DNA of 35,289 nucleotides. Origin: a virus. The notes below the pieces were generated by a model. The model saw only the letters and a program-made list of their open reading frames with translations, searched no databases and had not been told where the DNA came from. This document shows positions 17,226 through 34,751 of the stretch, one piece after another. The translations under genes and the position numbers were made by a program. Where the stretch lies: IMG/VR virus record IMGVR_UViG_3300022752_000206, positions 1 through 35,289 of that record. One strand, given 5' to 3'. How positions within the stretch are numbered: the stretch's first letter is position 1; the number at the start of each line of letters is the position of its first letter.

Positions 17226-19064
17226 TTAGAAGTTGTAGGTGGAAGGTCCACCGCCAGTTGTGTTTCTCTTAACACCGGTAACTCTCTGAGTTCCAGCAGA
17301 TCCGGTACCGTTTAGTCCGGAGTACGGCGTTATATAGAATTGATAGTAAAAGTTTAATCCACCACTGTTTGTTATGATACTTGAACCGTTGGTTGTATTT
17401 GAGGTAACAAAAGTGGTGACTGGAGAATTAAGTGCACTGCTTGCACTTCTATAAACTATATAGAATACTGAGGAAGTGTTTTGCGCTGTCCAGGTTGCGG
17501 TCATATATGGAGTAGATGATCCTCCCGGTGTTAAGGTAATTGATGAGATGTTTGGAAGAGCTGTTGTTGTAAATGAAGTACTTGCTGAGGCACTACTTGA
17601 AGAAGAGTTTGTAACGGTGACCGTTATGTTGTAGGTTGTACCTGGAGATAATCCAGTAACCGCACGAGAGGTTGCCGTTGTTCCTGTGTATGAGCTTGGC
17701 AGACCAGTTATACTATAAGTTGCTTGATTTGTAGAAGACCAACTGATAGTAGCGGTGCTGGTAGTTATAGAAGATACTGTAAGGTTAGTTATCGTTGGAG
17801 GAGCAGCTGAAACTGTAAACGCAAATCCAGCACTCCAGTCACTTGCAAGAGTTGATGGACCAACACTTGTTTCTCCTAAACTTGCAACAGATCTTACGTA
17901 CGCATACCAGGTAAATCCAGTTGGACCTGGACCAGTATTATCTGTTATAGGACTTGAGGAGCTTGACGCGTCAAAAGATACTGGATCTGTTATGTCTGGA
18001 AGTCCAGTTGTCCAATAAAGTTGGTAGAAAGGTCCTGAACCTCCAGTAAAGTATACTGTTACTGGGCCATATTCTACTCCTGAAGTGACAGAAGTTATAG
18101 TAGGAGCAGTTAAATTAGATAAAGTAGAAAAAGTTACTGATCCGTAGTTTGTTCCTGTAAAGTAGTAGTTGTTTGCTCTAACTAAAACAGTGTATGAGGT
18201 ACCTGATGAAAGTCCTGTGATGTTTACCGAGGTACTTGTTGACGTTGATGTCCAACTTGATCCGCCGTTTATAGAGTAGTCGTAGCTTTGAATCGCGGAC
18301 ATTCCGCTGTTTGCGTTAGTTGGAGCAGTCCAGGAAACTGTGGCGGAGGTTCCTGTTATCGAGCTCGCGGTAACTGACGTCGGCGCCTGTGCGGATGAAC
18401 CTTGGTTTGCAACTATGCTGATGTATCCGTCGTCAGCAGTTCCTGACGTTAGTGTACTTTGTGCAAGCCAGACTGGATGAGATGCTGCTCCAAACTCGGT
18501 AAACGAGGTGGCAAACGCGGCGGTGGTGTTGAAGTAGACTCGATACTCCGCTCCAACCGTTCTTGTTGTTGTAATTCTGCTATAACCTGTGCTAGACCCA
18601 TCGACGTAATATCCTGTTAAAGAGTACGTACTTGATGGAAATGCAACTAACTTAATCAACGCGTAGTCCTGTCCGTCGATGAAGTGCACCTCATACTCAA
18701 TCTCAAAGTCAGTTCCAACTGAGAAGCGTTTTCCGCGCCAAAAAACATAAAATCTTGTACCACTTGCGGCCCAGCGAACCGAGTTCATCACAAGGTCAGC
18801 AGGAAGAATGCCTAAAACACGATCAACTGTACTTGATATGTTTATTGCAGACTGTCCGGAGTCAAGAGAGATGTATCCGTTTGTTCCTACGTGAACCGTG
18901 TTACCAAAGTTAAACGTATAGTTTCGTGTTCCTGGCCAAAACTGTGCCCACGATCCTGCCACCTTTATATAGGCTTGTGCCACGTTTGCCCACGAGCCAG
19001 ATACTTTTATAGCCATCTGTGTTACGTTTGCCCACGCACCACTTACCTTTATGTGCATCGTCAT
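17226..19064 (-). CDS. Tail fibre / receptor-binding protein with fibronectin type III domains
   Basis: A 612-residue Ser/Thr/Gly-rich protein. It opens with three 14-residue repeats (IKVSGAWANV, IKVSGSWANV, IKVAGSWAQF). A beta domain follows (about 45-220), and then fibronectin-III-like units, best seen as APTSVTASSITGTSATVSW near residue 230 and TITNLTVSSITTSTATISW near residue 430, each ending in a GLSSGTSYTVLV-type strand. Such proteins project from the tail tip and often touch the host surface or its polysaccharides. It lies at the distal end of the tail module, after the hub and the other fibre. The sugar or receptor cannot be predicted. Confidence 0.8.
   Translation of the reverse strand: MTMHIKVSGAWANVTQMAIKVSGSWANVAQAYIKVAGSWAQFWPGTRNYTFNFGNTVHVGTNGYISLDSGQSAINISSTVDRVLGILPADLVMNSVRWAASGTRFYVFWRGKRFSVGTDFEIEYEVHFIDGQDYALIKLVAFPSSTYSLTGYYVDGSSTGYSRITTTRTVGAEYRVYFNTTAAFATSFTEFGAASHPVWLAQSTLTSGTADDGYISIVANQGSSAQAPTSVTASSITGTSATVSWTAPTNANSGMSAIQSYDYSINGGSSWTSTSTSTSVNITGLSSGTSYTVLVRANNYYFTGTNYGSVTFSTLSNLTAPTITSVTSGVEYGPVTVYFTGGSGPFYQLYWTTGLPDITDPVSFDASSSSSPITDNTGPGPTGFTWYAYVRSVASLGETSVGPSTLASDWSAGFAFTVSAAPPTITNLTVSSITTSTATISWSSTNQATYSITGLPSSYTGTTATSRAVTGLSPGTTYNITVTVTNSSSSSASASTSFTTTALPNISSITLTPGGSSTPYMTATWTAQNTSSVFYIVYRSASSALNSPVTTFVTSNTTNGSSIITNSGGLNFYYQFYITPYSGLNGTGSAGTQRVTGVKRNTTGGGPSTYNF
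18939..19055 (-). repeat. Three tandem 42-bp coding repeats at the fibre N-terminus
   Basis: Imperfect repeats encoding (H/A/Y)IKV(S/A)G(A/S)WA(N/Q)(V/F) with a period of 14 residues. GTTTGCCCACG is shared on the plus strand by the first two. Tandem growth of an attachment motif is likely. Confidence 0.75.
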
Positions 19065-19080
19065 TTTATATACCTACTAT

Positions 19081-20391
19081 CTATTCATAGACCAAAAATA
19101 TTGAGCCGTTATAGTAGGCGGACGCATCTGGTAATCCGATGCTAGAGGCCGCTATGTTTCTAACTATTGATAGTGTCGCACTAACATCATTTAAGTATGT
19201 AAGACCAAGATTACCAGTTTGAAGAATGCCTGCGTTAAACTTCATGTTTAAGGTACTTGTTCCGCTGCCTTGAGCTAAACTTATATATCCTGGACTTCCG
19301 GTATTGTAAGGCGCATAGATTATTACTGAGCTAAGTCCGTATGTTGGATCGGTGCTTAACTCAACAATACCTGGATTAGTAGTTGTACTGTAAAATGATA
19401 TTCTTCCTGGTGTGGCAGAGTCCATCTCAATACGTGTGCCTGATGCTGCCTGGCGAATATTTGCACCGGTAATTGTCTTACCGTCAATGGCAGTTGCTGA
19501 AAGTTTAGCTGCGGTAATTGAGCCTGCGGATATACGCGCCGCGTCTAGTGAGCCAGTTGTAATCTGTCCGGCGTCTAAGTTTGATGTAACTATAACGTTT
19601 GCAGCAAGAGATCCTGCGGTAATCTTTGCGGCCGATATATTTGACAGTGCGCCATCTCCAAGTGAAAAACCCTTCCAACCTGCGGTATTGGTGATTGTTC
19701 CTGCTGATACCGTCGATGAGACGTTTGCCGCGTTCTTTGCATATCTAACTGTTAACGCGGTAGGAGTTGCGGTAACCACATAGGATCCATTAAACGTTGC
19801 GTCAACACCTGAGACAGTTATTGTTTCTCCAACCACGAATGTGTGTGCTGATGAGACGGTAAGAGTTGCAACGTTTGACGTAAGTTGCTTGTTTGTTACA
19901 GTTGCCGTTATGGCTGTGCTATAGCGATATATCTTGTTGTCATCATCTGTATCAAACCAGGTGTCACCTAGTACATATGTTCCACCTGTTGGCTCGTAGT
20001 CCTGTCGGTAGATAGTATTTTTTCCATCCGCACTTGCTCGCGCCGTGTAGTCAATTGCTGTTGCTTCAATAAAATCCTCGGAAATTGGGTCATACACTGA
20101 CTGTGCACCTGTGTTTGGATCAAACCAGGTCGTACCTTCCTTAAGATACTCAGTTGGCTCGGTCGTAGTTACAAACGTAGTTCCAAACTCTGCCTCATTT
20201 GGAGTTATCGCATCAGGTTGTATTGCCTTGGTAGGAACAGTGCGGTATTGAATCTTCTCGCCGGTAACTACGTTTCTCTTTAGACGTGTAGCTCCAGGGC
20301 GCTTCTCAACACGGCGAACGCGACGCTCAACGTCAACAACAACCTTACCTATACTTTTACGTCGTCTTCTTCTGCTAGCCAACTCTGTCAA
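19081..20391 (-). CDS. Minor tail / fibre protein with inserted beta module
   Basis: 436 residues. The basic N-terminus (ASRRRRRKSIG) is followed by a linker, two WFD units (GTTWFDPNTG and GDTWFDTDDD), the recurrent beta module at residues 165-235, and a repetitive beta-helix-like stretch (ISAAKITAGSLAANVIV, LDAGQITTGSLDAARISAGS). It ends in a compact domain. This pattern fits a trimeric fibre shaft or baseplate-associated protein. The start is TTG at 20391 with AGAGG six bases upstream. A second TTG at 20382 lies nine bases after GGAGG and is equally plausible. It overlaps the hub gene's end. Confidence 0.75.
   Translation of the reverse strand: MTELASRRRRRKSIGKVVVDVERRVRRVEKRPGATRLKRNVVTGEKIQYRTVPTKAIQPDAITPNEAEFGTTFVTTTEPTEYLKEGTTWFDPNTGAQSVYDPISEDFIEATAIDYTARASADGKNTIYRQDYEPTGGTYVLGDTWFDTDDDNKIYRYSTAITATVTNKQLTSNVATLTVSSAHTFVVGETITVSGVDATFNGSYVVTATPTALTVRYAKNAANVSSTVSAGTITNTAGWKGFSLGDGALSNISAAKITAGSLAANVIVTSNLDAGQITTGSLDAARISAGSITAAKLSATAIDGKTITGANIRQAASGTRIEMDSATPGRISFYSTTTNPGIVELSTDPTYGLSSVIIYAPYNTGSPGYISLAQGSGTSTLNMKFNAGILQTGNLGLTYLNDVSATLSIVRNIAASSIGLPDASAYYNGSIFLVYE
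19687..19899 (-). repeat. Beta-module copy in the fibre gene
   Basis: Encodes the recurrent module (NKQLTSNVATLTVSSAH, GETITVSGVDATFNGSYVV, TPTALTVRYAKNAANV). Its DNA is close to the nested copy in the hub gene, including a shared stretch near its 5' end coding NKQLTSNVATLT. Confidence 0.8.
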
Positions 20392-22576
20392 CCTCCGCCT
20401 CTGTAACTAGAATTAACTCAACCTCTTCACCAAAGCTTGGTGAGTCTGGAACCTTAACCTTGTACGCGTCGATCTTTCTAACTAAAACTGTATCGCGTGG
20501 CTCTAGGTCCGAGGCAAGACGCATGCGAACAAACTCATCATTTATTACTATCGCGCACCAGTCACCTGGAACGTACTCGCCGATCTTAGGAGATAGAGAT
20601 CCATTAACTCTCACGTTTATGTCTGAGATCGGAGGACGTGACTCGGTTAGGTAGCGCTGTGCGTGTGCGTACAGAGCCTCCTCATCTCCTGTCTCATTTC
20701 TTGTCTCCTCCTGGTCAAGTAGAGGCCAACCTTGAAGTAGAAGATCGGTGTTACTTGCCACCGCGTATGGTTGAGATGCATCCTCACCAAGATCAGGTAT
20801 GTTTCCAACGACAAAAAATCTAGTCGCGGAGTCCTCCGCATTTTCATCCATAGTTACGTCAATGATGTTTCCAGGATACTCAAACACAAGTTCATCTGCA
20901 CCAAACCTACTTAGAGGAGATACCTCTCCCTCGGCAGGAGGATTTGGAAAGTCAATTGGAATTAGAACAAACTCTCTTGTAAACACCGGAATGTTTCCAA
21001 CGTACTCGATGTGACAGTCTACACGATACTCAAAGCCGTCAACCGTGTCGGAGTACTCGTCAAGCTCCTCACCAACGCTACGCAACTCGTATCCTCGATA
21101 GTTTGTGTTTGGTACGTTCTTGCCGCTGTAGTCCTCGGTTGAGTAGTAGATGTCGATGTCAGAGTTTCCAGGAAATGGTCCGTATGTTCCAACGTCAACT
21201 GTTGGAGTTACGTTTGCTGTCGCACCTGTAACCGTGGTGGTAGGCATGTCCGTGTCTGACAGTGATATGGTAAACGTCGTCACCGTGGGAGTTTCAATTA
21301 TTGTGTGGGTACCGTCAAATACGGAGATTGGAACCGCGATTGAAACGCTGCCTCCAACGACGACGGTGGACGCGACGTTGGACGCGATCTTTCCATAGGT
21401 TAGCGTTGTGGTAGTTGGAACGTCGTCGATGTAGTAGACACCGTTAAATGTGGCGTCAACACTTGACACGGTTATCGTGTCACCGATGTTTGCGCCGTGC
21501 GCACTTGACGTGGTAAGAGTTGCTACGTTGGAGGTAAGCTGCTTGTTTGTTACGGTCTTTGCCGCGCCGTCAACGCCGGATATAACTACGGTGTCGCCAA
21601 CGCTAAACCCGTGACTTGCCGAGGTAGTTAGTGTTCCAACAAAGTTTGTTATACTTTTACTTGTTATGCTCTTTGAGTTCGTAGTTATTGCTGCTGATGC
21701 AACGTTTGCGGAGCTAAGTGCAAATGTAAACGTGTTTGCCGTCGGTGTTGAGATAACGTCATGTACACCGTCAAACGTGGCATCAACGTTGTAGATACTT
21801 ACAGTCTGTGTAGGAATTATTCCGTGGTCAGTTGAGGTAGTTATCGTGGCAACGTTTGATGTTAATTCCTTGTTAGATATCGTGACGCTGGTGGTAGACG
21901 CAGGCTCAATCTCCGTGTTTGGAAACGTCGTTCCGCTAAAGTCAACAAGAACCTCATCGACAAGTTGGCGTACGTAGTCATAGGTATCAACGCGGGCATA
22001 GATCGTTGCGTCAAGATACGTTCCCGCTGGAATTGAGGTACCTGTAACCGTAAACTGATCAACTCCGTTTGAGGTTGCGATGGTGTAGTATCCGTTATAC
22101 TCAAACATGTTTGTTGTTATAAACTCAATCTTAACCTTAGATCCAACTGGAAAGTCATAGGTAAGATTTTGTAAGGTTGCCGTCAAGGTTCCACCCGCGA
22201 CAACAACATCAGCTCCAAAGTCATGTGACCAGGTCTTCCAGATATTTCGATGATAGAAGTAGCTTGTAAACTCAGATGCGTTTACGGTTAGATCTCTATC
22301 AACTACGTCATATGATCTACTCCAGATAATTCCACCCCAGACGCACTCCTGATCTCGAACTACGTACAGTCCTGTCTTTCCAGGCATGGTACTTTCATAG
22401 ATGTTCATAGACGCGGTCTCAGGAATCACCGGAATACTTCCGCTAAATGATCCTGCCGCCTTTATCGAGCGCTCGAAGGAAACACCCTTGAACGGAATCT
22501 CCGCAAGTACGGTATTTGTTAAAAGATCAGTTGTGAAGTAGCGATATACGGATGCAACCGTGTCAACCGTAGCCAT
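20375..22576 (-). CDS. Tail hub / minor tail protein with four beta-module copies
   Basis: 733 residues. The N-terminal part (about 1-120: IPFKGVSFERSIKAAGSFSGSIPV, YVVRDQECVWGGIIWSRSYD) and the C-terminal part (RPPISDINVRVNGSLSPKIGEYVPGDW, LVTEAEVDRV) resemble the hub proteins of actinophage siphovirus tails (Gp37-like). Between them lie module copies at about 130-180 (diverged), 231-300 (complete), and a split copy (303-337 plus 414-450) that holds a complete copy at 339-413. It should form the tail tip below the Dit ring. ATG start with GAAGGA upstream. Confidence 0.77.
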   Translation of the reverse strand: MATVDTVASVYRYFTTDLLTNTVLAEIPFKGVSFERSIKAAGSFSGSIPVIPETASMNIYESTMPGKTGLYVVRDQECVWGGIIWSRSYDVVDRDLTVNASEFTSYFYHRNIWKTWSHDFGADVVVAGGTLTATLQNLTYDFPVGSKVKIEFITTNMFEYNGYYTIATSNGVDQFTVTGTSIPAGTYLDATIYARVDTYDYVRQLVDEVLVDFSGTTFPNTEIEPASTTSVTISNKELTSNVATITTSTDHGIIPTQTVSIYNVDATFDGVHDVISTPTANTFTFALSSANVASAAITTNSKSITSKSITNFVGTLTTSASHGFSVGDTVVISGVDGAAKTVTNKQLTSNVATLTTSSAHGANIGDTITVSSVDATFNGVYYIDDVPTTTTLTYGKIASNVASTVVVGGSVSIAVPISVFDGTHTIIETPTVTTFTISLSDTDMPTTTVTGATANVTPTVDVGTYGPFPGNSDIDIYYSTEDYSGKNVPNTNYRGYELRSVGEELDEYSDTVDGFEYRVDCHIEYVGNIPVFTREFVLIPIDFPNPPAEGEVSPLSRFGADELVFEYPGNIIDVTMDENAEDSATRFFVVGNIPDLGEDASQPYAVASNTDLLLQGWPLLDQEETRNETGDEEALYAHAQRYLTESRPPISDINVRVNGSLSPKIGEYVPGDWCAIVINDEFVRMRLASDLEPRDTVLVRKIDAYKVKVPDSPSFGEEVELILVTEAEVDRVG
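21212..21895 (-). repeat. Array of beta modules, one nested within another
   Basis: Encodes hub residues 228-455. Copy one begins ISNKELTSNVATITTS. Copy two begins ITNFVGTLTTSASHGF and stops after VISGVDGA. A full copy beginning VTNKQLTSNVATLTTSS then intervenes (about 21338-21562), after which copy two resumes as VFDGTHTIIETPTVTTF. The junctions show insertion into the loop after the GVD strand. Confidence 0.72.
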
Positions 22577-22622
22577 GTTATTTATCCTTCGTCGTGTGTA
22601 GAGTCATTTGGAGTATCCTATA

Positions 22623-24266
22623 CTATCCAAGCCACGCGGAGCGGTAATACACAGTTAACGATGAGGTCGTGTTTGCATTTCCTTCGTCAACAAAGCTAAA
22701 CAGGTTTGTGCCAGGAGCAAGAAGAGTCCACTCGGCAAGAACGTCGATTAGGTTTCTCTTTCCAACCGCGTCTCCGTTAAGTGCAACCTCGTGATCTCTT
22801 GTGTCGATCTCCAGTATGTCGGGACCAAACGTTATCGTGCCTGCCGGGCTGACCACCGATGACACGACGTTTGCCGCGGTCTTGGCGTAGGTTAATGTCG
22901 TCGTGGTTGGAACGTCAATAATCGTGTAGGTTCCATTGAAGGTAGAGTCAACTCCGGTTACCACGATCTCGTCACCCGCAAGAAGGCCGTGGGCACTTGA
23001 GGTAGTTAGGGTCGCCACGTTTGAGGTTAAGGCCTTGTTTGATACCGCGGGAGTTAGTACTCCGCGTAGGCTCTCGATTATCGTGATCTCCTCGTTTGTG
23101 GTCACGTTTTGAATCACTCCAGGACCTGTTAGAGGGCCTGTGATCTCCAAAACAACAGGCGCATAGGCATTACCCGTATTTACAACAGATCCCTCACCAG
23201 AGACCGCGGGAGTGCCGCTCTGCCCTGGTATTACAACCGATCTGTAGCCTAGCTCGTTACCCTCGTACCACTCGTATTTAAGTGGGTCCGGAGCGCGTAG
23301 TCCGATTGAAAATTCTGTTCGTCCACGGGGATTAACCGTGGTGATCTCAGGGCGTCCTGAGAGACGTACGTATGAGGCCTTTGTAGGGTTCTCGTTGGTC
23401 CTAAGCCAGTCACCTACGTATACGAGGTCGGTGTTTGCGATTAACTTGGAGCGTGCCGCAGGAACGTATGACGCGTCAGGCACAAGAAATACTCCGTTAA
23501 GCGTAAGTTGACGAGCCTGGTATCTTCCACGTACGTCGTATGATCCGTCACCGTAGCCGCGAGGAATGTCCTGTACGTCAGGCTCAGGGTGGTTCCACCA
23601 ACCCTCGATGTCGGTGCATATCCAGACAACTCCGTCCTCGTCGATCGTGTTAAGAACTAACGAGCCAAGACTTACACCCGCGTCTAGCTTTAGACCGGTG
23701 ATCTTTGGATACGGAACCGGCGATAGACCCTTGTTTACAAACTTTGTCTCTGTTGCCTGCGTAGGCTCATCAAGATACTCGTTTAGATATGATGCCTGCT
23801 CAAATAGGACGGCATCAACGTAGAACGTCTCTGCCGCGGTTCCTGCGGTAGGTTGAACTACCGAGACTAGTGCGCTTAACGCTCCTGCGGGAGCCGTAAA
23901 TACTCCGGTAAGTCTAACCCAGTCATCGCCAGGAATAACGTCTAGAGATATCGTGGTTGAAGTTGAAAGTAGGCTTCCGGCGGTTGCGGAGTCATACCAC
24001 TGCACTCTTCCGACGAGAGTTCCAGCCTCCTGTGATGCGTCGATCTTTACATAGATTCCTAAGGCGTATGAAAGCGCCTGAGTTACTAAGATTCTTGAAG
24101 ACGTCACCGCACCTGAGTTTGACGAGGCAGCCTTTGCAACCTGTAGACATGATGATCCGTAGAAGTAGTTTGACGTAATTCTTGAGAGGGTGCTTGATCC
24201 TGTCGCCGACCAACCTGTGGTGTTTGTCTTAAACGAAGGATTAACTATGAGGTTATTTCTTGCCAT
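22623..24266 (-). CDS. Distal-tail (Dit-like) protein with carbohydrate-binding N-terminus
   Basis: 547 residues. Residues 1-160 look like a CBM_4_9-type jelly roll: NLIVNPSFKTNTTGWSATG, then a late DDWVRLTGVFTAP and FYVDAVLFEQ. The middle (about 180-350) has the Dit-like pattern with YQARQLTLNGVF and FSIGLRAPDPLKYEW. The beta module sits at 406-480, and a short C-terminal strand region follows (HEVALNGDAVGKRN). Dit forms the ring joining tail tube and hub. The carbohydrate-binding domain suggests early contact with cell-wall glycans. It follows the tape measure gene by one base. Confidence 0.78.
   Translation of the reverse strand: MARNNLIVNPSFKTNTTGWSATGSSTLSRITSNYFYGSSCLQVAKAASSNSGAVTSSRILVTQALSYALGIYVKIDASQEAGTLVGRVQWYDSATAGSLLSTSTTISLDVIPGDDWVRLTGVFTAPAGALSALVSVVQPTAGTAAETFYVDAVLFEQASYLNEYLDEPTQATETKFVNKGLSPVPYPKITGLKLDAGVSLGSLVLNTIDEDGVVWICTDIEGWWNHPEPDVQDIPRGYGDGSYDVRGRYQARQLTLNGVFLVPDASYVPAARSKLIANTDLVYVGDWLRTNENPTKASYVRLSGRPEITTVNPRGRTEFSIGLRAPDPLKYEWYEGNELGYRSVVIPGQSGTPAVSGEGSVVNTGNAYAPVVLEITGPLTGPGVIQNVTTNEEITIIESLRGVLTPAVSNKALTSNVATLTTSSAHGLLAGDEIVVTGVDSTFNGTYTIIDVPTTTTLTYAKTAANVVSSVVSPAGTITFGPDILEIDTRDHEVALNGDAVGKRNLIDVLAEWTLLAPGTNLFSFVDEGNANTTSSLTVYYRSAWLG
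22827..23051 (-). repeat. Beta-module copy in the Dit-like gene
   Basis: Encodes residues 406-480 of the Dit-like protein (VSNKALTSNVATLTTSSAH, GVDSTFNGTYTIIDVPTTTT, YAKTAANV). This is the most regular of all the copies. Confidence 0.8.
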
Positions 24267-24267
24267 G

Positions 24268-27168
24268 TTATGCTCCTCCGCGACGTAGTTGGAACGCGAT
24301 CTGACGTGAAACTAGCGAGGCAAGCTCTGTCTCATCCATGCCAGGAGATGGATATACGTTTATTGTCATTCCTGCGCCTTTTTCTCCTGCTAAAAGTTTA
24401 ATCATTGACTTATCTCGCTTTGAAAGTCCGTCTGGATCTAGCGGCTCAATTCTTTCTGGACGACCAGCCTCGGCAACGCGAGCTAAGGTACCTTGTCCTG
24501 AAGGATATACTGTTCCGCCTTCAGCGAACTGAGGTATCGTAGGAAATCCTATTGTACCTCCGCCAAATGGTCCGATCTTAGGAAGTGTAATCTTTAACTT
24601 GCCAAGCGTGTTGTTCCAGACTGATATTAACGCATTTATTGCACCGCGAACTACTGATATAACGATATCAAATGAATTTTTTACAACTCCACCTATCGAG
24701 CTAAGTACCTTTATTAAGCTTCCAACCACTGTTATAGCTACAGATATTGCAGCTGCAGCCTGTTTTATTGCAGACACAAGAACAACTCCAATTATCGGAA
24801 CTATATACTTTCCTACAAAGTCTCCAAGTGCCTTAAATATTCCCATAATTCCACCAAGGCTAGGAGCTACGCTTGCTATGGCAGAGTTTATCTGGTTAAA
24901 CGCATCTTTCAGTGTACCACCTACAACACTTACAAGGTTAGAAATGGCTTCTCTAAATATCTCGCTCTTGTTGTACGCAAGAATAAGAACTGCAGCTATT
25001 GCTGTAAAAATTCCTATAGCCGCAAGGAATGGTCCTGCGCCTGCAAAGCCAAATGCCTTAGCGGCAGCCGTAACAGAAGGACCTAGCCTTAAGTAGGCAG
25101 TTGTTAAGCTCTGAATTGGATTGGTTAAAAATGGAATAACATCAGCTAGGGCAAGAATAGATCCTTCAATTACCTTAGATCCAAATTTAACTACGTCTCC
25201 GATAGTTCCAAGGGCAAGAGAAAATGCTAGTAGTTGTGCTGTAACGTTAAATAATCCTTGCATTCCAGGATTATCAAGTATCTTAGTAAGTACATTTAAT
25301 GCGCTTCCTAAGGTGTTAAGAAATACCTGTATTGCTCCGCTTGAGAGAGTAACTCTTCCAAAATCTATAAGTGACACTACAAATTTTGCCAGCTGAGGAC
25401 CGGCAGCGTTAAGTCCCTTTAATATTTCTCCAAACGCAGGAGCTCCAGTCTTTAACGTATCCCAGAACGCCTTAACGCCAGGATCGGCTCCAGCCTGAAG
25501 TATTATCTTTACAAACGCACCTAGTGATTGAAGTACGGCCTTTGCGTTTATTGCAACGTCTCTAAAGTACTTTTGAAGTGCCTGTTGTCCGGAGACAGAA
25601 CCTGAGAAGCTATCAAACTTTCTAGTTACCTCATTTAACCAGTCAATTAGTACGTATCCTCCTCCACCAGGAGAGAAGTTTGCCTTTGTTATGTTTGCAA
25701 GACTACGAAATGTATTCCCAAATATTGACCCTAAAGTTGCGGCAATGTCACCCGCCTTGTTGAAGAACTTAGTTAGTTCTCCTGAGGCTTCCTGCAGATT
25801 TAGGTAGTCGGCAAAGGCAGCTGTTTTATTTTCTATAAACTTATTAAATCTATTTATTAGAGGCTCAGCAGCAACAAGAAGAGTTAGAAATCCTTCATAG
25901 ATATTTCCTAAGCTTGTTGCATAGCTTTGAATACTTATACCTGACTGTACTATTAGTTTATTTAACTTTTGTATATTATCTAGCTTTACTATAGCATCAA
26001 CTATCTTTCCAAAAGCCTTACCTATGTCATCTCCAAGCTGAATTAGTGCTGGACGAAGCGCTGGAAAAAGTACTGTTCTAAGTCTTTCTAGTCCGGCCTC
26101 CAGTTGAGAAAATAGTTGCTGTCCAAGTGCGTTACGAAGATCCTTTAACGCGGGAATAAACGTCCCGATCATGTACCTTACAAATCCTTGTGCCTCCTTT
26201 GAAAGATCTGCAAGTGCGTTTTGAAAGTTTGTGTCCTGGGTGCCGCCGCTCTTTGCCTTATTAAGTGCGTCCTGTGCGTCCTGTTGATCGCGAACGGCAT
26301 CAACTACGCGCTTCTGTGCGTCAAGATATGTGCTAGTCTGTTGTGCCTGTGTAGTTCCAGCTGCAACCGCTGCCTTGGCAAGTCGCTCCTGCTCCTTGCG
26401 AAGATCTGAGTTTTTGTCCTTTGCACGACGGAGGTTTAACTCAGCCTCCTCGAACGCAAGTTGCGCCTCGCGACGAGCACGCGAGTTTGGTGGAAGGTCC
26501 TGTACACGTTGAAGAGTTTCACGCGCCTTTTCTAGGTCAATTGAAGCCTTCTTCTCAGATAGTGCTGCATCCTCCGCGTCAAAACCAAGTTGCTGCACCT
26601 CCTCATCTGCCTTCATTGCTGCCTCAGCAAAGTCTCTCTGTGCCGCGGCAACTCTCTCGGTGGCAAGTGCTAGGTTCTTTAACGCACTTTGATACGCATC
26701 TGCATTCTTAGTTCCAGCAAGCTTAGCCTTTGTTCCGGCTGATATTGCCTTTGTAACTCCAGACAGCGCTCCTACTAATCCAAGTGCGGCGATACCTATA
26801 GACGAGATGGCACTTGCAAAGACTATAGCTGAAGGAGCGGCCGCAACTAGTGATGAGGCAAGTGATACAAGTCCGCCTGCTAGGGCGCCAATAGTAGATA
26901 ACACTTGAGAAAAAATAGGACCAATTAGATATCCAGTTTTAACCAATGCTTGGAATCTTGCCCGTGCTGCGTCAGCCGCCGCTCCAAAGTCCGCAAGCGA
27001 ACTTCTTAATCCACTGCCAGTTCCTTTTGAAAATCCTCTAGAAAAACTTTGCCCAACAGCACGTCCTTCGCGATCAATATTTATTCCACTTGCTGCACGA
27101 CGGACCTCAGACTCAAAACCTGTTGTTATCGCCTTTACGACGATATATGCATCTCCTACTATTGCCAT
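24268..27168 (-). CDS. Tape measure protein
   Basis: 966 residues, the longest structural gene. It has long helical and coiled-coil stretches (about 150-330, rich in Ala, Lys, Glu and Gln). Several hydrophobic helices follow or precede these, such as LAGGLVSLASSLVAAAPS near residue 100 and GPFLAAIGIFTAIAAVLIL near residue 735. The C-terminus has FAEGGTVYPSGQ and ends with LVSRQIAFQLRRGGA. It sets tail length and helps DNA entry. At the usual rule of about 0.15 nm per residue, this implies a tail near 145 nm. No lysozyme or peptidase domain was recognised. AAAGGAGGTGAG before the ATG is the strongest ribosome site seen in the window. Confidence 0.93.
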   Translation of the reverse strand: MAIVGDAYIVVKAITTGFESEVRRAASGINIDREGRAVGQSFSRGFSKGTGSGLRSSLADFGAAADAARARFQALVKTGYLIGPIFSQVLSTIGALAGGLVSLASSLVAAAPSAIVFASAISSIGIAALGLVGALSGVTKAISAGTKAKLAGTKNADAYQSALKNLALATERVAAAQRDFAEAAMKADEEVQQLGFDAEDAALSEKKASIDLEKARETLQRVQDLPPNSRARREAQLAFEEAELNLRRAKDKNSDLRKEQERLAKAAVAAGTTQAQQTSTYLDAQKRVVDAVRDQQDAQDALNKAKSGGTQDTNFQNALADLSKEAQGFVRYMIGTFIPALKDLRNALGQQLFSQLEAGLERLRTVLFPALRPALIQLGDDIGKAFGKIVDAIVKLDNIQKLNKLIVQSGISIQSYATSLGNIYEGFLTLLVAAEPLINRFNKFIENKTAAFADYLNLQEASGELTKFFNKAGDIAATLGSIFGNTFRSLANITKANFSPGGGGYVLIDWLNEVTRKFDSFSGSVSGQQALQKYFRDVAINAKAVLQSLGAFVKIILQAGADPGVKAFWDTLKTGAPAFGEILKGLNAAGPQLAKFVVSLIDFGRVTLSSGAIQVFLNTLGSALNVLTKILDNPGMQGLFNVTAQLLAFSLALGTIGDVVKFGSKVIEGSILALADVIPFLTNPIQSLTTAYLRLGPSVTAAAKAFGFAGAGPFLAAIGIFTAIAAVLILAYNKSEIFREAISNLVSVVGGTLKDAFNQINSAIASVAPSLGGIMGIFKALGDFVGKYIVPIIGVVLVSAIKQAAAAISVAITVVGSLIKVLSSIGGVVKNSFDIVISVVRGAINALISVWNNTLGKLKITLPKIGPFGGGTIGFPTIPQFAEGGTVYPSGQGTLARVAEAGRPERIEPLDPDGLSKRDKSMIKLLAGEKGAGMTINVYPSPGMDETELASLVSRQIAFQLRRGGA

Positions 27169-27201
27169 GTACTCACCTCCTTTCTATTTTTAACTTTATC
27201 T

Positions 27202-27579
27202 TTATCTAGACAGTGGTTCGTCTAAAACTGAGCCAAATGGTTTTGGTGATGCTGCATTTACCTCTGTAGCTGGAACAAAAGGCTTAGGCGGTTTCTTCAT
27301 CGGATCAAACGCCTCAATCTTTTCCTCTTCCTCCTCAGGAGAACTGTCAAAGTCCTTTGTAAAGTTTTGACCTCCCGCTGAGTAGTTGGCGTTTGCTCTT
27401 GTCTGAGTATTTGAATATGCATATCTGTGTCCGTAGAAGTCCTGGTAGATGATCTCGCGAGAACGATCCTTGGCGTCTGCCTGCTCTGCTGATGCATAGT
27501 TCATATCATCTTCAAAGAAGTAATGCAGCACATCAAGCATATCTGATGCGTTCATCTCTTTTAGGTCCAATCCGTTCAC
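27202..27579 (-). CDS. Tail assembly chaperone, downstream frameshift part (gpT-like)
   Basis: 125 residues from a GTG at 27579. The GTG has only a weak ribosome site (GGAAAA). The same frame is open upstream to about 27666, across the end of the other chaperone ORF. The upstream reading (LLIWGVDLWPYVNGKALV) looks like natural protein joined to NGLDLKEMNASDMLDVLHYFFEDD. It is therefore more likely made as a -1 frameshift extension of the gene at 27624-27962 than started independently. The remainder is acidic and linker-like (SPEEEEEKIEAFDP). In lambda and mycobacteriophages such a pair recruits tail tube protein to the tape measure, whose gene follows. Confidence 0.75.
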   Translation of the reverse strand: MNGLDLKEMNASDMLDVLHYFFEDDMNYASAEQADAKDRSREIIYQDFYGHRYAYSNTQTRANANYSAGGQNFTKDFDSSPEEEEEKIEAFDPMKKPPKPFVPATEVNAASPKPFGSVLDEPLSR

Positions 27580-27623
27580 TAGTGCTTTTCCGTTAACATA
27601 AGGCCAAAGGTCAACTCCCCAGA

Positions 27624-27962
27624 TTAGGAGACTTTTGGCTCCTCTTCCGGGCGTCCTGCGTACACCTCAACTAACCAACCTGAGATCTCGGCAAGTGTCT
27701 CAACTGAAACGATCTTGTCAGGGTGAGTAAGAAGAGTATTAAATCTTTTATAACTTTCCTCAAGCAGTACACTTTCAAAGAAGCTACTAATTGTCTTTGC
27801 AGCCTCGGCTGGATCCTCTGCACTTGATCTAGCCACAAGATCAAGAAGTGTCTTTCCTTGAAGCTCTTCACGACATGAAAACTCCTCGCCGTGAATCTTA
27901 AATGTTACAGGTTCTTTTTCACCTGTACTTTTGCCAGAGCCAAAGTCTCTGTATTTAGTCAT
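27624..27962 (-). CDS. Tail assembly chaperone, upstream part (gpG-like)
   Basis: 112 residues. The N-terminal region PVTFKIHGEEFSCREELQGKTLLDLVAR and helices (SAEDPAEAAKTISSFFESVLLEESYKRF, split by short loops) match the usual gpG-type chaperone plan in actinophages: a small beta start, then helices. It ends EEEPKVS just after the likely frameshift site. It lies between neck genes and tape measure, the standard place. Confidence 0.75.
   Translation of the reverse strand: MTKYRDFGSGKSTGEKEPVTFKIHGEEFSCREELQGKTLLDLVARSSAEDPAEAAKTISSFFESVLLEESYKRFNTLLTHPDKIVSVETLAEISGWLVEVYAGRPEEEPKVS
27632..27639 (-). promoter_or_regulatory. Candidate -1 frameshift site
   Basis: The minus strand reads GCCAAAAG, in frame as CCA AAA G. 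The A-site AAA re-pairs perfectly after slipping back one base; the P-site CCA to GCC pairing is imperfect, so this is not a canonical heptamer. It lies three codons before the upstream stop, and the -1 frame is open on both sides. The slip must fall between about 27624 and 27666. Confidence 0.45.
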
Positions 27963-27994
27963 TGTTTCTTCCTCCGTTGTTTGTTTGTGTCTTT

Positions 27995-28014
27995 ATTGAG
28001 ACGGTTGTCTCAAT
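27995..28014. repeat. Perfect 8-bp inverted repeat between tail genes
   Basis: ATTGAGAC-GGTT-GTCTCAAT lies in the 56-base gap between the neck gene and the tail chaperone. There is no U-run, so it is not an ordinary terminator. A GATAAT (-10-like) lies just upstream on the minus strand. The half-site GTCTCAAT also occurs immediately after the -10 near position 638. It could be an operator or an RNA hairpin. Confidence 0.5.
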
Positions 28015-28018
28015 TCTA

Positions 28019-28555
28019 TTATCTTATCAAATAAAGGTTGTCGGCGAGGTACTTGTTAGGCTTAGTTCCAGGGTGTCTTACTATCCGAGTGTAGATGACT
28101 CGCCCTCTAGAAGAGAAGCGAAGAAACTCTGCTCGATCTGGAGTAATTATGTGAGGTCTTGTACCTTCGTGGTGTATTAAGGCGTAGCTAAGAGGTGAGC
28201 CTATCTTTAATGACTGGCCTCCGACCGAGCGGTACTGTCTCATGTTTATTGAGGCCTTCAGTCTTCCGGTCTTAACTCCAACCTGGTTCTTTGCCGCAAT
28301 TAAAATTCTTGTGCCACGCTCGGCTAGGTAACGTCCAACGTCTCCTTCTGGGGAGTTAAGTAGATGATCTAGCGCTCCGCGATTAAACACGATGTGAATT
28401 TTTGAGAACCCGACACCAACTGAAGGTGCAGACGCACGAGCCGCGACTGCTGCAGCCCTAGCTCTTCCAGCTCTTCCAGCTCTTCCAATGCCTCTAGCAG
28501 CTCTTTGACCTAGGTATATAAAAGGACTATCAGGTATTAAACCATATAAAGGCAT
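28019..28555 (-). CDS. HK97 gp10-like neck / head-tail connection protein
   Basis: 178 residues. The C-terminal two thirds has KTGRLKASINMRQY, SYALIHHEGTRPHI and TRIVRHPGTKPNKYLADNL, the pattern of HK97 gp10-like proteins at the head-tail junction. The N-terminus carries an Arg-Ala-Gly repeat (GRAGRAGRARAAA) encoded by three 9-base repeats, which may be a flexible or nucleic-acid-contacting arm. The ATG region overlaps the upstream gene's end by one base. Confidence 0.75.
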   Translation of the reverse strand: MPLYGLIPDSPFIYLGQRAARGIGRAGRAGRARAAAVAARASAPSVGVGFSKIHIVFNRGALDHLLNSPEGDVGRYLAERGTRILIAAKNQVGVKTGRLKASINMRQYRSVGGQSLKIGSPLSYALIHHEGTRPHIITPDRAEFLRFSSRGRVIYTRIVRHPGTKPNKYLADNLYLIR

Positions 28556-29058
28556 TATGGAACTACCATCGTTAACTGCATCGCGGTAGTTTGAAAGCCA
28601 CCGTCAAATCCACTTGAGTCAGCGGTGGCAATAACACCTAGGCCAAACTCGCCTGGTTCCCACTGGTCTAACTTGTTTATTAACTCCATGAACATCCACG
28701 CGTCAACCACCGCGATGCGTGATGCCTCCTCGATCTTGTCTCCGGTAGGAGCCTTTCCGTTAACTCCAACCACAGGAATCTCGCGTGATATTGATATGGT
28801 AAGCACGACGCTACGTGGTGACTGACAGCGTTGAGGCTCACTTGCCTGGTTGCCAGGAAGACCTAGGTAGGTTTGAATAAATGAAACAACAAGCTGCTCG
28901 CAGTCGATCGCGGGCTCGCCTACGGTCCAAAACTGTCTTGAAGGAAGTGGAACGTTGTACTCCTCAAAGACCTCGATGGTCTTCTCAAGAACACCGTCCA
29001 TCAGGTTCTTTAGGTTAAGTGCACCTGCACTTACGCCGCTTATATCTACTATTGCCAT
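28555..29058 (-). CDS. Tail terminator / head-tail connector-like protein
   Basis: A 167-residue protein placed exactly where siphoviruses encode the tail terminator. It shows a helical N-terminus (LKNLMDGVLEKTIEVFEEY), a beta strand pair (RSVVLTISISREIPVV), a helix (AVVDAWMFMELINKLDQW) and a final strand (TAMQLTMVVP), the alternating plan of that family. It would cap the tail tube and join it to the neck. Identification is mainly by position and fold plan. Confidence 0.6.
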   Translation of the reverse strand: MAIVDISGVSAGALNLKNLMDGVLEKTIEVFEEYNVPLPSRQFWTVGEPAIDCEQLVVSFIQTYLGLPGNQASEPQRCQSPRSVVLTISISREIPVVGVNGKAPTGDKIEEASRIAVVDAWMFMELINKLDQWEPGEFGLGVIATADSSGFDGGFQTTAMQLTMVVP

Positions 29059-29081
29059 AATTCGTCCTTTAGGTCCCTAGG

Positions 29082-30470
29082 TTAATTTCCGATGGTGTAC
29101 GTAGGTACTGGGTTGTTTGCTAGCCGAAGTGTTAGGTTTCCTGAGGCAATATACACGGTCTCTGTATTAGCTCCAACCGTTCTATCAGCGTATAGGTCCC
29201 AGGTTCCTGGGTCAAGGAAGCCAACGTAGTTGTATGCCTCGTCGTATGTGACTGATAGCGTTAGCGTGTCATGCGACTCGTTTGTTACGGTTGCGGTTCC
29301 GGTACCCACGCCGTATGCAACGTCAGCAACGCGCTCGTCCTCATCTCGTGCGTAGATAAATCTTGTTGTGCTTGGCACCTCGGTGATGTAGTAGCTACCG
29401 TTAAAGGTGGAGTTTATTCCGGCGATGGTGACTAGGTCTCCAACTACAAAGCCGTGAGCCGTGCTGGTTGTGATCGTCGCGTAGTTATCAACCAACTGCT
29501 TATATGTGACGTTCTTTGTTATGTCACTTGTTATCGAGTTGATTGACACGGAGCTAGAACCAAGCTCAACTGAGCTCGTCGAGCTGTAGTTATTTATCTT
29601 AAGATAAGGAATCCAGGTAGGATCTGAAACTAGGAACCCAGCGTTTATGTAGTCGATATTTACGTCCACGGTTCCTCCCTCCACGCCTGTAACAAACATG
29701 TCAAGATTGGTTATTGGAAGAACGGCTGGCTTGGCAACCATGCGGCGTGCACGTGGAACGTCGACTGAGAACACGCGAGCCTTTGCTCTTGCCTTGTCTG
29801 GGTTTGCTGACTTTAGGAATAGATCAACGACGTATAGGCCTGTTCGCATGTCATCGATGAAGTCCTGGTTATCAAGAATTGTGTAGGAAACTCCCTGACG
29901 TGCCACCGAGGTAACGCGGGAAGGAAGATCACACTCGTCACCGTTCCATAACTTAACAAACTCTGTCGCAAGAACTCTAGCCGCGGCGCGTCCAAGCGCA
30001 GGTGCAGGAGAGCCATATGAATATGTAACCTCGATGTTGCAGGGTGTCCAAGGAACACCTGAGCGCGCCTGTAGTGTTGAGTGATCAACCAGGTAGTAAC
30101 GGCTAGGACTTACGATCTGTCCGGTTCTATCACGCACCGAGTGAATCTGCTGAACAGGACGTCCGCGCAATCTCAACCTTGATGACGGAGACATTCCGTC
30201 GGTTGTCATCTCCGCGTAGTCATCAAATTCGTCAAAAGGAATGTTGTAGATCTGGCCTTGCACAAGCTCGGCGGTGTAGTTCTTAGAGGACTGCCCTAGG
30301 CGATACGCCCTAGATGAGCAGATGTACTTCTCAGTTACGGTAGTTGTTCCGCTGTATTTTCTACCTGACAATGACCAAAGAAGTTGCGATGCTGTCTTTA
30401 CCGCCTCATATGCATACTCGCTGTCAGCGTAGTCATCAAGCTCTTCTACGCCTACCCATAAGTTTGACAC
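29082..30470 (-). CDS. Head-to-tail adaptor with inserted beta module
   Basis: 462 residues, longer than usual adaptors (about 150-250). The N-terminal half (DDYADSEYAYEAVKTASQLLWSLSG, GRPVQQIHSVRD, RVTSVARQGVSYTILD, GLYVVDLFLKSANPDKAR) follows the actinophage adaptor pattern that docks under the portal. The C-terminal half is a beta-rich extension: a strand domain, the recurrent module at residues 320-396, and a final sandwich (SVTYDEAYNYVGFL). The extension probably decorates the neck. Confidence 0.8.
   Translation of the reverse strand: MSNLWVGVEELDDYADSEYAYEAVKTASQLLWSLSGRKYSGTTTVTEKYICSSRAYRLGQSSKNYTAELVQGQIYNIPFDEFDDYAEMTTDGMSPSSRLRLRGRPVQQIHSVRDRTGQIVSPSRYYLVDHSTLQARSGVPWTPCNIEVTYSYGSPAPALGRAAARVLATEFVKLWNGDECDLPSRVTSVARQGVSYTILDNQDFIDDMRTGLYVVDLFLKSANPDKARAKARVFSVDVPRARRMVAKPAVLPITNLDMFVTGVEGGTVDVNIDYINAGFLVSDPTWIPYLKINNYSSTSSVELGSSSVSINSITSDITKNVTYKQLVDNYATITTSTAHGFVVGDLVTIAGINSTFNGSYYITEVPSTTRFIYARDEDERVADVAYGVGTGTATVTNESHDTLTLSVTYDEAYNYVGFLDPGTWDLYADRTVGANTETVYIASGNLTLRLANNPVPTYTIGN
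29283..29513 (-). repeat. Beta-module copy in the adaptor gene
   Basis: Encodes residues 320-396 of the adaptor (YKQLVDNYATITTSTAHGF, AGINSTFNGSYYITEVPSTT). It is more diverged, with an acidic insert (RDEDERVADV) near the end. Confidence 0.78.
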
Positions 30471-30515
30471 TTATCGTTCCTCGTCTACTCGTCGTTAGCT
30501 TATTCTAATAAAGGA

Positions 30516-30556
30516 GCGGCATGCCTGTGTATAAATATTACACATCGGCATGCCGC
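30516..30556 (-). terminator. Long hairpin after the tail tube gene
   Basis: Arms GCGGCATGCC and GGCATGCCGC pair perfectly (10 bp). Six more pairs (TGTGTA with TACACA) follow after a two-base bulge, closing on a 7-base loop. It starts 14 bases after the tube stop on the transcribed strand. Only a short, broken U-run follows (CTCCTTTATT), so it may be a terminator, or an mRNA 3' protector that boosts tube expression. Confidence 0.65.
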
Positions 30557-30570
30557 ACATCTACCTTTAA

Positions 30571-31617
30571 TTAAGAGGTTGGATCCTCGGTTGAAGCAAT
30601 GATGTAGTCAACAGGATTATCCTCATTGAAGTTCTCATTTCCAGGTACGTTGTACGCTGTGGTTGAGCCCTGTGAGGTAAAGTCTGTAACTGCACGGCTG
30701 TTTGCACCAACTACGGCTGTACCGCTGTCTGCGGTAGAGGCAATAGTACCACTTGCTGTAGTTGTGTAGGTGAACGTTGTTGTTGTTGGTGCTGACACGA
30801 TTGTGTAGGTACCGTTCAACGCTGAGTTAGTTAGACCTGCTATAACGACTGAATCTCCAGCCTCAAATGTGTGTGCAGTTGAAGTTGTAATAGTTGCTGT
30901 TGAGCCAGTTCTAGCCACGTTGCTGACCGTCTTTGAAATTTCTCCATGCCATCTGTAGAATCCCTTTCGTCCGGTTGGAGCCCATGAAGAACGAGCGTAT
31001 GAATATGGACGCTCTGTTGCTGTTGGGAACTCCCAGCGCTCATCTAATCCAGATGAGAACGCTGTGTTTCCAAGGCCGTAGCCTTCAAATGTATTTGCAA
31101 GTAATCCGTTTTCAATTACGCGATCTCCTGAAAGACGAAGCTTGGCATATGGGAATACCCAGTGGAAGTAAGGAAGTGATGCTGCCTTCTTTCCATCAAT
31201 GATTGCATGAGACCAGGTCTCAATCGCAACGCCGTATCCTGCTGGATCATCTCCGGTTGAAGGAGAAGACCAACCGATTGACTTACGATCTGGTGAGGCG
31301 TATGTGCCAAGGTTCTTGCGAAGTAACAAACCGCCTGAGATAAGCTGTGTTAACTCTGGGTCTGGTTCGCAGATCGCAAGCTCCATTGTGATACGCTTTA
31401 GCGTATCAGGAGCCTTGTAGGTTACGCAGACTGTGCCGTCAGCGCCCTTTTCTGTGATTTCATCGCCCTCTTCATACTCAGGTGTGAATGAAAGGCGCAT
31501 GAAGCCTGATGTTGTGTAGCTGTCGCCTGCTGCATTCAGGAGATTACCAGATGCGTCAAGACGAGTTACTCGAATCGACACACCCTGAATACTCGCGGCG
31601 TATTCTTGTGTTGCCAT
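30571..31617 (-). CDS. Major tail (tube) protein with inserted beta module
   Basis: 348 residues. The core (about 1-228) has IQGVSIRVTRLDASGN, SYTTSGFMRLSFTPEYEEGDE and VTYKAPDTLKRITMELAI, the pattern of actinophage tail tube proteins. The recurrent beta module is at residues 230-303, followed by a tail (NVPGNENFNEDN) that ends the protein. A tube protein present in many copies would display the module all along the tail, as Ig-like decoration does in other phages. AAGAAGGAG precedes the ATG. A strong hairpin follows the stop. Confidence 0.8.
   Translation of the reverse strand: MATQEYAASIQGVSIRVTRLDASGNLLNAAGDSYTTSGFMRLSFTPEYEEGDEITEKGADGTVCVTYKAPDTLKRITMELAICEPDPELTQLISGGLLLRKNLGTYASPDRKSIGWSSPSTGDDPAGYGVAIETWSHAIIDGKKAASLPYFHWVFPYAKLRLSGDRVIENGLLANTFEGYGLGNTAFSSGLDERWEFPTATERPYSYARSSWAPTGRKGFYRWHGEISKTVSNVARTGSTATITTSTAHTFEAGDSVVIAGLTNSALNGTYTIVSAPTTTTFTYTTTASGTIASTADSGTAVVGANSRAVTDFTSQGSTTAYNVPGNENFNEDNPVDYIIASTEDPTS
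30709..30930 (-). repeat. Beta-module copy in the tail tube gene
   Basis: Encodes residues 230-303 of the tube protein (GSTATITTSTAHTFEAGD, AGLTNSALNGTYTIVSAPTTT). Its strand order is the same as the other copies, with a slightly longer loop (TNSAL in place of DAT). Confidence 0.78.
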
Positions 31618-31660: not shown

Positions 31661-32527
31661 CTATGCCGTCAGATCAACTCTGACTGCGAGATGGATAGAC
31701 GGGTCAAAGTAAACCGCCGCTGGGCGAATTGCTTTAATACGCATATCGTTCTGATTTCCTGCCACATCGTAGCTTTGGGCTAGATTGTCGGCTACGACAT
31801 CGACGTCGCCAAGAAATGTCCTGACTGAACCGGTGCCGTACATCCATTTGTTTGTCGCTGACGCCGTCGCGCCTGTTTGTCCGTCTGGGCCGGTTCCAGT
31901 ATATCCCGAGCCAATGATAATCTTGGTTCCGCTGATTGTCTGAAGGTGGCCTTTTTCTACGTTATGGAAGATCATGTAGTTAGCAGAAAGAAGACCTGCT
32001 GTGTCCTTTGTCATGTGAATGACACCGTTTTCTCCAGCTGGAGATGTATCTGCTAATTCAAAGTCTAGAAGTGCAAGCGCGCGCTGAACAGATAGCGCAG
32101 TCGTGCCGTTAATAAGAGTTGCAGTTGAGTCACTAAGTGCCTTATTAGCATGACTCTCACCTTTTCTAATTGCGCCGTCCCAGAGTTCGCGCTCCATTGC
32201 CTTCTGAGTTCCACCTTCAAGTTGGCGCTTAACTCTTGCAACGTAGTCAAGACCAGGAAAACCTAGTGTTGAGCGATAGTCTTCAGCTTCAATAAAAAAT
32301 GGTTTAATTTCTGTATAGCGCTCAGGGGCAGCATTAGACACCAACGTACTTGACGTTGTATCAGTGTCATCGTAGTTTACAAGACCACGGAGAGTTGTGT
32401 CCCACTCTTGTGAGAATCCTCGGATCCATTGATCTTCATTTACTTGAGTGTTAGGACTAGCTACGGTGAATAGACCGAACTCTGAAGGTACGATCTTTAG
32501 AGCTTCAAATATTCCGGTAAAAGCCAT
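31661..32527 (-). CDS. Second capsid-like structural protein
   Basis: 288 residues starting MAFTGIFEALK at the ATG at 32527 (AGGA nine bases upstream). A longer reading to 32602 would run into the hairpin and lacks a ribosome site. It has a helical front (DYVARVKRQLEGGTQKAMERE), a central MTKDTAGLLSANYMIFHN region, and a C-terminus VVADNLAQSYD and AVYFDPSIHLAVRVDLTA typical of HK97-fold capsid A-domain ends. Position right after the main capsid gene fits a second capsid (pentamer-type) protein, but a minor head protein is possible. Confidence 0.6.
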   Translation of the reverse strand: MAFTGIFEALKIVPSEFGLFTVASPNTQVNEDQWIRGFSQEWDTTLRGLVNYDDTDTTSSTLVSNAAPERYTEIKPFFIEAEDYRSTLGFPGLDYVARVKRQLEGGTQKAMERELWDGAIRKGESHANKALSDSTATLINGTTALSVQRALALLDFELADTSPAGENGVIHMTKDTAGLLSANYMIFHNVEKGHLQTISGTKIIIGSGYTGTGPDGQTGATASATNKWMYGTGSVRTFLGDVDVVADNLAQSYDVAGNQNDMRIKAIRPAAVYFDPSIHLAVRVDLTA

Positions 32528-32570
32528 GTTCTCTGTTCCTAACTTAAATCTAGTTTTGTTTATTGTATCG

Positions 32571-32594
32571 GGGGAGCCCGTTTCCAGGCTCCCC
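32571..32594 (-). terminator. Strong GC hairpin between the two capsid genes
   Basis: GGGGAGCC and GGCTCCCC pair over eight bases around an 8-base loop, 21 bases after the capsid stop. There is no U-run afterward, so partial termination or message protection is more likely than full termination. It would lower or stabilise relative expression across capsid genes. Confidence 0.65.
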
Positions 32595-32615
32595 TTCAAC
32601 AAATGGGTTATCGGC

Positions 32616-34625: not shown

Positions 34626-34751
34626 TGTCCCTCCTCCGGGCCAGTCATGATGAACGAGGTTGTTCATTCGCTAATCAGTCCAAGGCCGAGGGACTCCGAA
34701 CGCATCTGTGCGTGGGAGGCACTCCACCTGGATTGAATAATATATTACTTT
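34626..34751 (-). promoter_or_regulatory. Leader region before the capsid gene
   Basis: The transcribed strand has a short AT-rich palindrome (TAATATATTA) that could hold a -10, then a small hairpin ACGCA-CAGA-TGCGT and nearby GC-rich segments. The main capsid ribosome site lies at its end. Promoter and leader roles are tentative; nothing else was seen in this gap. Confidence 0.35.

Follow-up and report, generated by a model that had tools for sequence, protein, structure and literature searches.

Our main finding is that one small protein module, predicted to fold as a six-stranded beta-barrel, is spread through the virion proteins of this phage and, as comparison with relatives indicates, has been inserted into a loop of its own kind. 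We put the probability of the explanation as a whole, that of a portable and self-nesting barrel, at about 0.7; its anatomical and evolutionary part, read from sequences, appears highly probable.

The window, that is, the whole stretch of DNA analyzed, is an entire IMG/VR record of 35289 bases, and probably represents a piece of a larger phage, as relatives reach about 130 kb. Its virion genes lie on the minus strand in the order capsid, gene 313, tube, adaptor, neck genes, tape measure, Dit, hub, fibre and FN3 protein. The major capsid protein is encoded at 32616-34667 (NF033847, 2e-97), and gene 313, which comes after it at 31661-32602, matches phrog_779, a family of unknown function. Gene order and matches point to a place with the group of Actinomycetia phage DSL-LC01, the terminase of which is nearest to those of Microbacterium phages (PMC10611076). 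The module is carried by five genes, for which profile matches uphold the identities proposed in an earlier, sequence-only reading of this DNA:

30571-31617, minus strand: tail tube carrier (major tail protein; phrog_792, 3e-21)
29082-30470, minus strand: head-tail adaptor carrier (phrog_783, 8e-37)
22623-24266, minus strand: Dit carrier (phrog_33, 5e-20; SPP1_Dit, 2e-6)
20375-22576, minus strand: hub-type minor tail protein carrier (phrog_1885, 4e-34)
19081-20391, minus strand: fibre-like carrier (phrog_1330, 3e-10)

In the Dit protein, the C-terminal SPP1_Dit domain scored 28.4 bits, above the cut-off of 25. The same gene encodes an N-terminal carbohydrate-binding domain (CBM_4_9, residues 4-134, at 23865-24257 on the minus strand; E 1.4e-10), a pattern of evolved Dit proteins. 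The final tail gene (17226-19064, minus strand) combines FN3 domains with a short N-terminal phrog_25859/36019 region, and possibly encodes a tip protein. Away from the tail genes, a helicase-like gene (8255-11146, minus strand) has an intein-like interruption (CFVKETPISTPHGFKAIDQLKPGDQIWG ... FANKVLVRNC), and an inner open reading frame (ORF) in another frame of it (9355-10155, minus strand) may encode a homing endonuclease.

Seven copies of the module, a unit of 71-76 residues, were found over the five virion genes, all on the minus strand. The sequence-only reading had placed a unit of about 70 residues in the tube, adaptor, Dit, hub and fibre genes, at nearly the same coordinates:

30706-30930, minus strand: tube module, in the C-terminal part of the protein (profile i-E 1e-25)
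29286-29513, minus strand: adaptor module, in a C-terminal extension (profile i-E 2e-33)
22827-23048, minus strand: Dit module, inserted before the C-terminal SPP1_Dit domain (profile i-E 8e-34)
21674-21886, minus strand: hub module 1, complete (profile i-E 9e-30)
21560-21670, minus strand: N-half of the hub outer module, strands 1-3, residues 303-339 (i-E 6.5e-11)
21335-21559, minus strand: hub inner module, complete, residues 340-414 (i-E 1.7e-30)
21209-21334, minus strand: C-half of the hub outer module, strands 4-6, residues 415-456 (i-E 1.7e-7)
19687-19902, minus strand: fibre module (profile i-E 1e-30)
21968-22234, minus strand: further hub barrel, residues 115-203, with a module-like strand pattern, recognized by fold match and not counted as a copy

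Pairwise, the copies share 33-66% protein identity, the inner hub, Dit and fibre copies being the most alike (61-66%). Homology at the protein level of one module over non-homologous carriers, as had been proposed, is beyond doubt (alignment Z 9-26, E down to 8e-34). The module is rich in Thr, Ser and Val, and a tblastn search of annotated phages with the module consensus (1e-3, low-complexity filtering on) gave no match, as would be expected if the likeness came merely from Thr-rich, low-complexity composition and common beta turns. We consider this negligible: alignments lie 9-26 standard deviations above shuffles of the same composition, profile E-values reach 1e-33, reversed ORFs are almost without matches, and a confident common fold is predicted. 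A real module copy searched against annotated phages at E 10 retrieved Microbacterium phages, DSL-LC01 and, weakly, cyanophages.

When modeled alone with AlphaFold, the Dit copy yielded six strands with a pLDDT of 97.4. Its best structural matches are the barrels of the phi92 and K1F endosialidases and the FCCH domain of ubiquitin E1, with Z of 9-10 over 70-76 residues. For E1 FCCH, Z rises to 9.9, with an rmsd of 2.1-2.5 and 70-72 of 77 residues aligned, so that the correspondence of fold extends over the whole domain. Weaker matches include the I-domain of the P22 coat protein and tail-tube barrels of T1, FCWL1 and Mystique. The module is thus, on the basis of the model, a six-stranded beta-barrel of the FCCH/endosialidase-barrel type. 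Sequence identity with the FCCH and endosialidase barrels is 15-22%, and the Pfam cut-off for E1_FCCH (PF16190; 29.5 bits) is not reached by the window hub (14.8 bits), by gene 98 of phage A3Wally (20.8) or by contig L107 (22.6). Of the 'FCCH/Ig-like' resemblance initially suggested, the FCCH half therefore stands as a statement about fold, and the Ig-like half finds no support: no module copy of the window has a Pfam Big or fn3 match, the sole Ig_7 match (E 0.16) lies outside the module in Dit, and the best fold matches are barrels, with no Ig domain among the matches listed, although such a list may miss an Ig sandwich. Among predicted viral proteins, the fold recurs in, for example, baseplate J-like and wedge proteins, with 39-48% identity for the best matches, which argues that the module is widespread in tailed phages.

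The hub gene is where nesting is seen in the window. The sequence-only reading had recognized the hub block as a module region; units do occupy 21209-21886, not as a simple tandem array, however, but as a complete unit followed by a second unit that is split by a third. A complete module interrupts the second one after '...GDTVVISGVDG', and the second continues from 'SVFDGTHTI...', so that the inner module sits in the strand 3-4 loop of the outer one (21209-21670, minus strand). In relatives with hubs of 655-656 residues the outer module is uninterrupted ('LSGVDDPASLIIVFDGEYQI') and the inner module is absent. To the uninterrupted module of relatives L044, L048 and L057, the two outer halves in the window are a better match than the halves of the inner module; the comparison with L032 is ambiguous for the outer N-half. 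By these sequence comparisons, the hub contains a family member inserted into a loop of a member of the same family. The AlphaFold model of the hub has a mean pLDDT of 52 and is confident only at residues ~120-190 and 228-463, with values of ~65-91 per ten-residue block across the modules. There, outer strands at 300-310, 313-318 and 329-333 are followed by six inner strands within 339-414, and then by outer strands at 422-426, 434-438 and 444-456. When the whole hub model was used in a structure search, the matches listed covered the inner module and a barrel at ~115-206 but not the split outer module, so that the case for an outer barrel rests on strand order and relatives. The barrel at 115-203 matches riboflavin synthase and FAD-binding barrels as well as the Mystique tail tube (Z 7.5-7.9), and relatives show weak C-half matches in this region.

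Much deeper nests were found in isolated Microbacterium phages (A3Wally, Big4, Zooman, Pumpernickel and Cece) and in the metagenomic contigs L080 and L081. Here, N-halves follow one another about 36 residues apart, and C-halves come after them. Half-models applied at a threshold of 6 found 438 N-halves and 418 C-halves in real ORFs, versus 0 and 2, respectively, in reversed ORFs. The Dit gene (gene 98 of A3Wally) ends with eight N-halves, then C8, C7 and C6 up to strand 5, and then a stop. The ATG of gene 99, which encodes FN3 domains, lies 9-24 bases past this stop, four of the five isolates having a Shine-Dalgarno-like sequence in the gap, and the end of gene 99 encodes an apparent strand 6 of C6, then C5 to C1, and then the terminal strand of Dit. 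That ending occurs in 63 of 3247 ORFs, which are Dit genes and exactly the five gene-99 homologues. Over the two genes, the counts are 8 N-halves versus 3+5 C-halves, or 7 versus 2+5; what Zooman and Pumpernickel are missing is precisely the innermost module present in A3Wally, Big4 and Cece. The distant contigs L080 and L081, read by eye, have the same two-gene division, 7 versus 2+5, so that halves balance at 7:7 or 8:8 in seven phages, with the proviso that the C-halves include several low scorers and that, in each nest, one to three of them were assigned by eye. In the L081 homologue of gene 99 (8288-11128), extra tandem modules separate the last C-half from the end strand of Dit. The next gene, the hub gene (100), also contains a nest, in which half-models find 4-6 N-halves and 4-5 C-halves, and sequence reading gives six of each; a search of viral contigs with the A3Wally hub nest gave no match. 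The SPP1_Dit match in gene 98 of A3Wally covers only positions 38-89 of the 97 in the profile. Adding the gene 99 tail did not raise its score (33.7 bits versus 33.6 with the natural continuation), values too close to separate.

Could such series be independent tandem repeats of half-modules, forming a beta-solenoid or an array of hairpins? The N-halves do stand head to tail at ~36 residues, several C-halves are degenerate, and tandem duplication of a half-module is a simple process. We nevertheless judge this reading unlikely, because half counts balance in all seven phages over two genes, closely related phages differ by one whole module at the turning point, and the two-level case has both uninterrupted relatives and the strand order predicted for a split barrel. 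The same observations (balanced halves, a whole module present or absent at the center, uninterrupted relatives and predicted strand order) are good evidence for recursive insertion. As read from sequences, the Dit nests would be seven or eight deep, the five outer levels of which would be closed by C-halves of the next gene. Half-strings in the Dit genes of L170 (2483-5083), L183 (2483-5065) and L184 (2471-4828), the last of them nest-like, were also considered as nests and rejected: reading showed that they consist of six or seven modules in tandem, some halves of which had been missed, at the position that a single module occupies in the window. Separately, the contigs L106, L107 and L108, which were binned as actinobacterial genomes, code for giant proteins in which about five to eight modules stand in tandem, un-nested; in L107 these are accompanied by glycine-rich and FN3 domains.

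How the copies came to be shared was examined among 64 relatives found by an adaptor search. The sequence-only reading had proposed internal copying by recombination, with near-identical DNA in some copies. All-against-all comparison does not bear out near-identity: window copies share 56-66% DNA identity over the whole unit, and the best ungapped stretch of 61 nucleotides between copies reaches 82%. Where two copies have the same residue, the codon is the same in 279 of 677 cases, versus 245.5 expected from codon usage; codon agreement is thus near random, which indicates synonymous sites close to saturated. In all relatives, modules of different sites share at most 75% DNA identity. In a tree of the modules, site labels change 12 times (the minimum is 10) and genome labels 51 times, indicating orthology of the copies by site. 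Every relative whose locus covers that part of the tube or adaptor gene has the module there; at these sites, this is the same arrangement, with long divergence, that the sequence-only reading had itself named as counting against its proposal.

At other sites, the picture is one of presence and absence. The Dit site is empty in L022, L032, L037, L040, L057 and L058, and close relatives with empty and filled sites have otherwise collinear genes that differ by a single module (~70-77 residues). The gene 313 homologues of L023, L028, L046, L057, L066 and L071 have a module, and that of the window has none; in fibres, number and position of modules differ among relatives. When changes are counted on a tree of 56 relatives, where each site has 21-37 scorable loci, the minimum is four at the Dit site, two for the hub inner module, three in gene 313 and one at the Dit N-terminus; the tree is unrooted, so that these counts do not give the direction of gain or loss. 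Such comparisons show the tube and adaptor copies as old and fixed, and whole modules as coming and going in frame at Dit, hub, gene 313 and fibre. At the Dit N-terminus of L018 and L063 are two modules that are nearest to tube-type modules, and look like an old transfer between genes, derived from the tube. Copying between genes did thus occur, but long ago.

A recent duplication of one module inside this genome by recombination, with copies kept alike by gene conversion, is accordingly very improbable. It would agree with the homology of all copies, with the 61-nucleotide stretch at 82% and with the 61-66% protein identity of the inner hub, Dit and fibre modules; yet codon choice at shared residues is near random, modules of different phages group by site and not by genome, no cross-site pair passes 75% at the DNA level, and the tube and adaptor copies occur in every relative whose locus covers them.

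In sum, a portable barrel has been added, as a C-terminal extension or as a loop insert, to neck, tube and tail-tip proteins, and its strand 3-4 loop accepts another copy, so that modules nest, two deep in the window hub and, as read from the sequences of Microbacterium phages, seven to eight deep in Dit and about six deep in the hub. If strand directions alternate, as the hairpins suggest, the insertion loop would lie at the pole of the barrel opposite the termini; a nest would then be a stalk of barrels with two strands per joint, growing at its tip. We give this stalk an even chance. In the two-gene Dit nest, the balance of half counts suggests that the gene 98 and gene 99 proteins would complete each other's barrels as well as the last strand of Dit. 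That the sequences describe telescoping stalks of up to eight nested barrels, with Dit and the FN3 protein of one phage group locked together by at least five two-chain barrels and Dit receiving its last strand from its neighbor, we regard as somewhat better than even.

As to function, the barrels would serve as surface spacers and perhaps bind glycans weakly, as an aid in attaching to the surface of actinobacteria. Glycan binding is a tentative proposal, at rather less than even odds, and the adhesion reading is drawn by analogy with the K1F barrel and with the Ig domains of mycobacteriophage Douge. The K1F endosialidase barrel is a sialic-acid binder, with loops that influence host discrimination (PMC12632334); residue 460, named in that work, falls in the range matched by the module (423-506). 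In Douge, the capsid and tube have Ig domains, and the isolated domains bind mycobacterial glycans (PMC13033339). The phage may, as initially envisaged, have a common adhesin along its whole tail. Alternatively, the barrels might be structural spacers that stabilize the assembly of tube, neck and tip and bind no host, which we find conceivable, though also short of an even chance. The fixation of modules at tube and adaptor fits such a role, as do the P22 and tail-tube barrels among the fold matches, and the tube Ig domains of lambda and T5 vary in importance (PMC8718954). On the other hand, modules are gained and lost among close relatives in Dit, hub, gene 313 and fibre, which suggests that these copies are dispensable, and the sialic-acid binding barrel of K1F is itself among the fold matches (PMC12632334).

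The FCCH domain is itself an inserted domain. It and the K1F and phi92 endosialidase barrels share the predicted fold of the module over 70-76 residues (Z 9-10), and differ from it in sequence, with 15-22% identity and a Pfam FCCH cut-off that the module does not reach. The P22 coat I-domain and the T1, FCWL1 and Mystique tail-tube barrels likewise stand on capsid, tube or neck proteins; they are weaker matches, likened by fold alone. For annotation, the module carries a warning: Pfam largely misses the module, PHROGs matches come mostly through families of unknown function, and half-modules in neighboring genes may belong to one structure.

For Ig folds, it is known that virion proteins share a beta domain, and Fraser et al. 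in 2006 are said to have described Ig-like domains on phage structural proteins. Like the module, these are small beta domains common to capsid, tube and tip proteins of many phages and projecting outward, but they are Ig sandwiches, whereas the module is predicted to be an FCCH-like barrel; it would thus be a second fold, unrelated to Ig, with the same habit of sharing. We found no report of self-nesting of phage Ig domains, nor, in the open-access literature searched, of recursive self-nesting in phages or of a nest split over two genes. Domain mosaicism is described for phage proteins, with domains common to tail fibres, spikes and baseplate proteins (PMC10684548); in a term search, that paper yielded no reference to nested or inserted domains, nor to ubiquitin-type domains.

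Recursive self-nesting is known from the cyanobacterial RNA polymerase, in the SI3 region of which SBHM/HABAS domains are recursively inserted over six nested levels (PMC13114784). As in the phage module, a small beta domain is there inserted repeatedly in its own kind, and the elaboration goes with a gene split (rpoC1/rpoC2), but fold and protein are unrelated. The phage nests differ further in that gain or loss of a single central module is visible between isolates, and in that the gene break falls inside the nest, with halves on two polypeptides. Recursion into its own loop is a rare mode of growth, of which a single step can here be seen between isolated phages. The phages offer a natural depth series (1, 2, ~6, 7 and 8) for the folding and evolution of nested domains and, in two gene products that would interlock through shared barrels, a case open to test.
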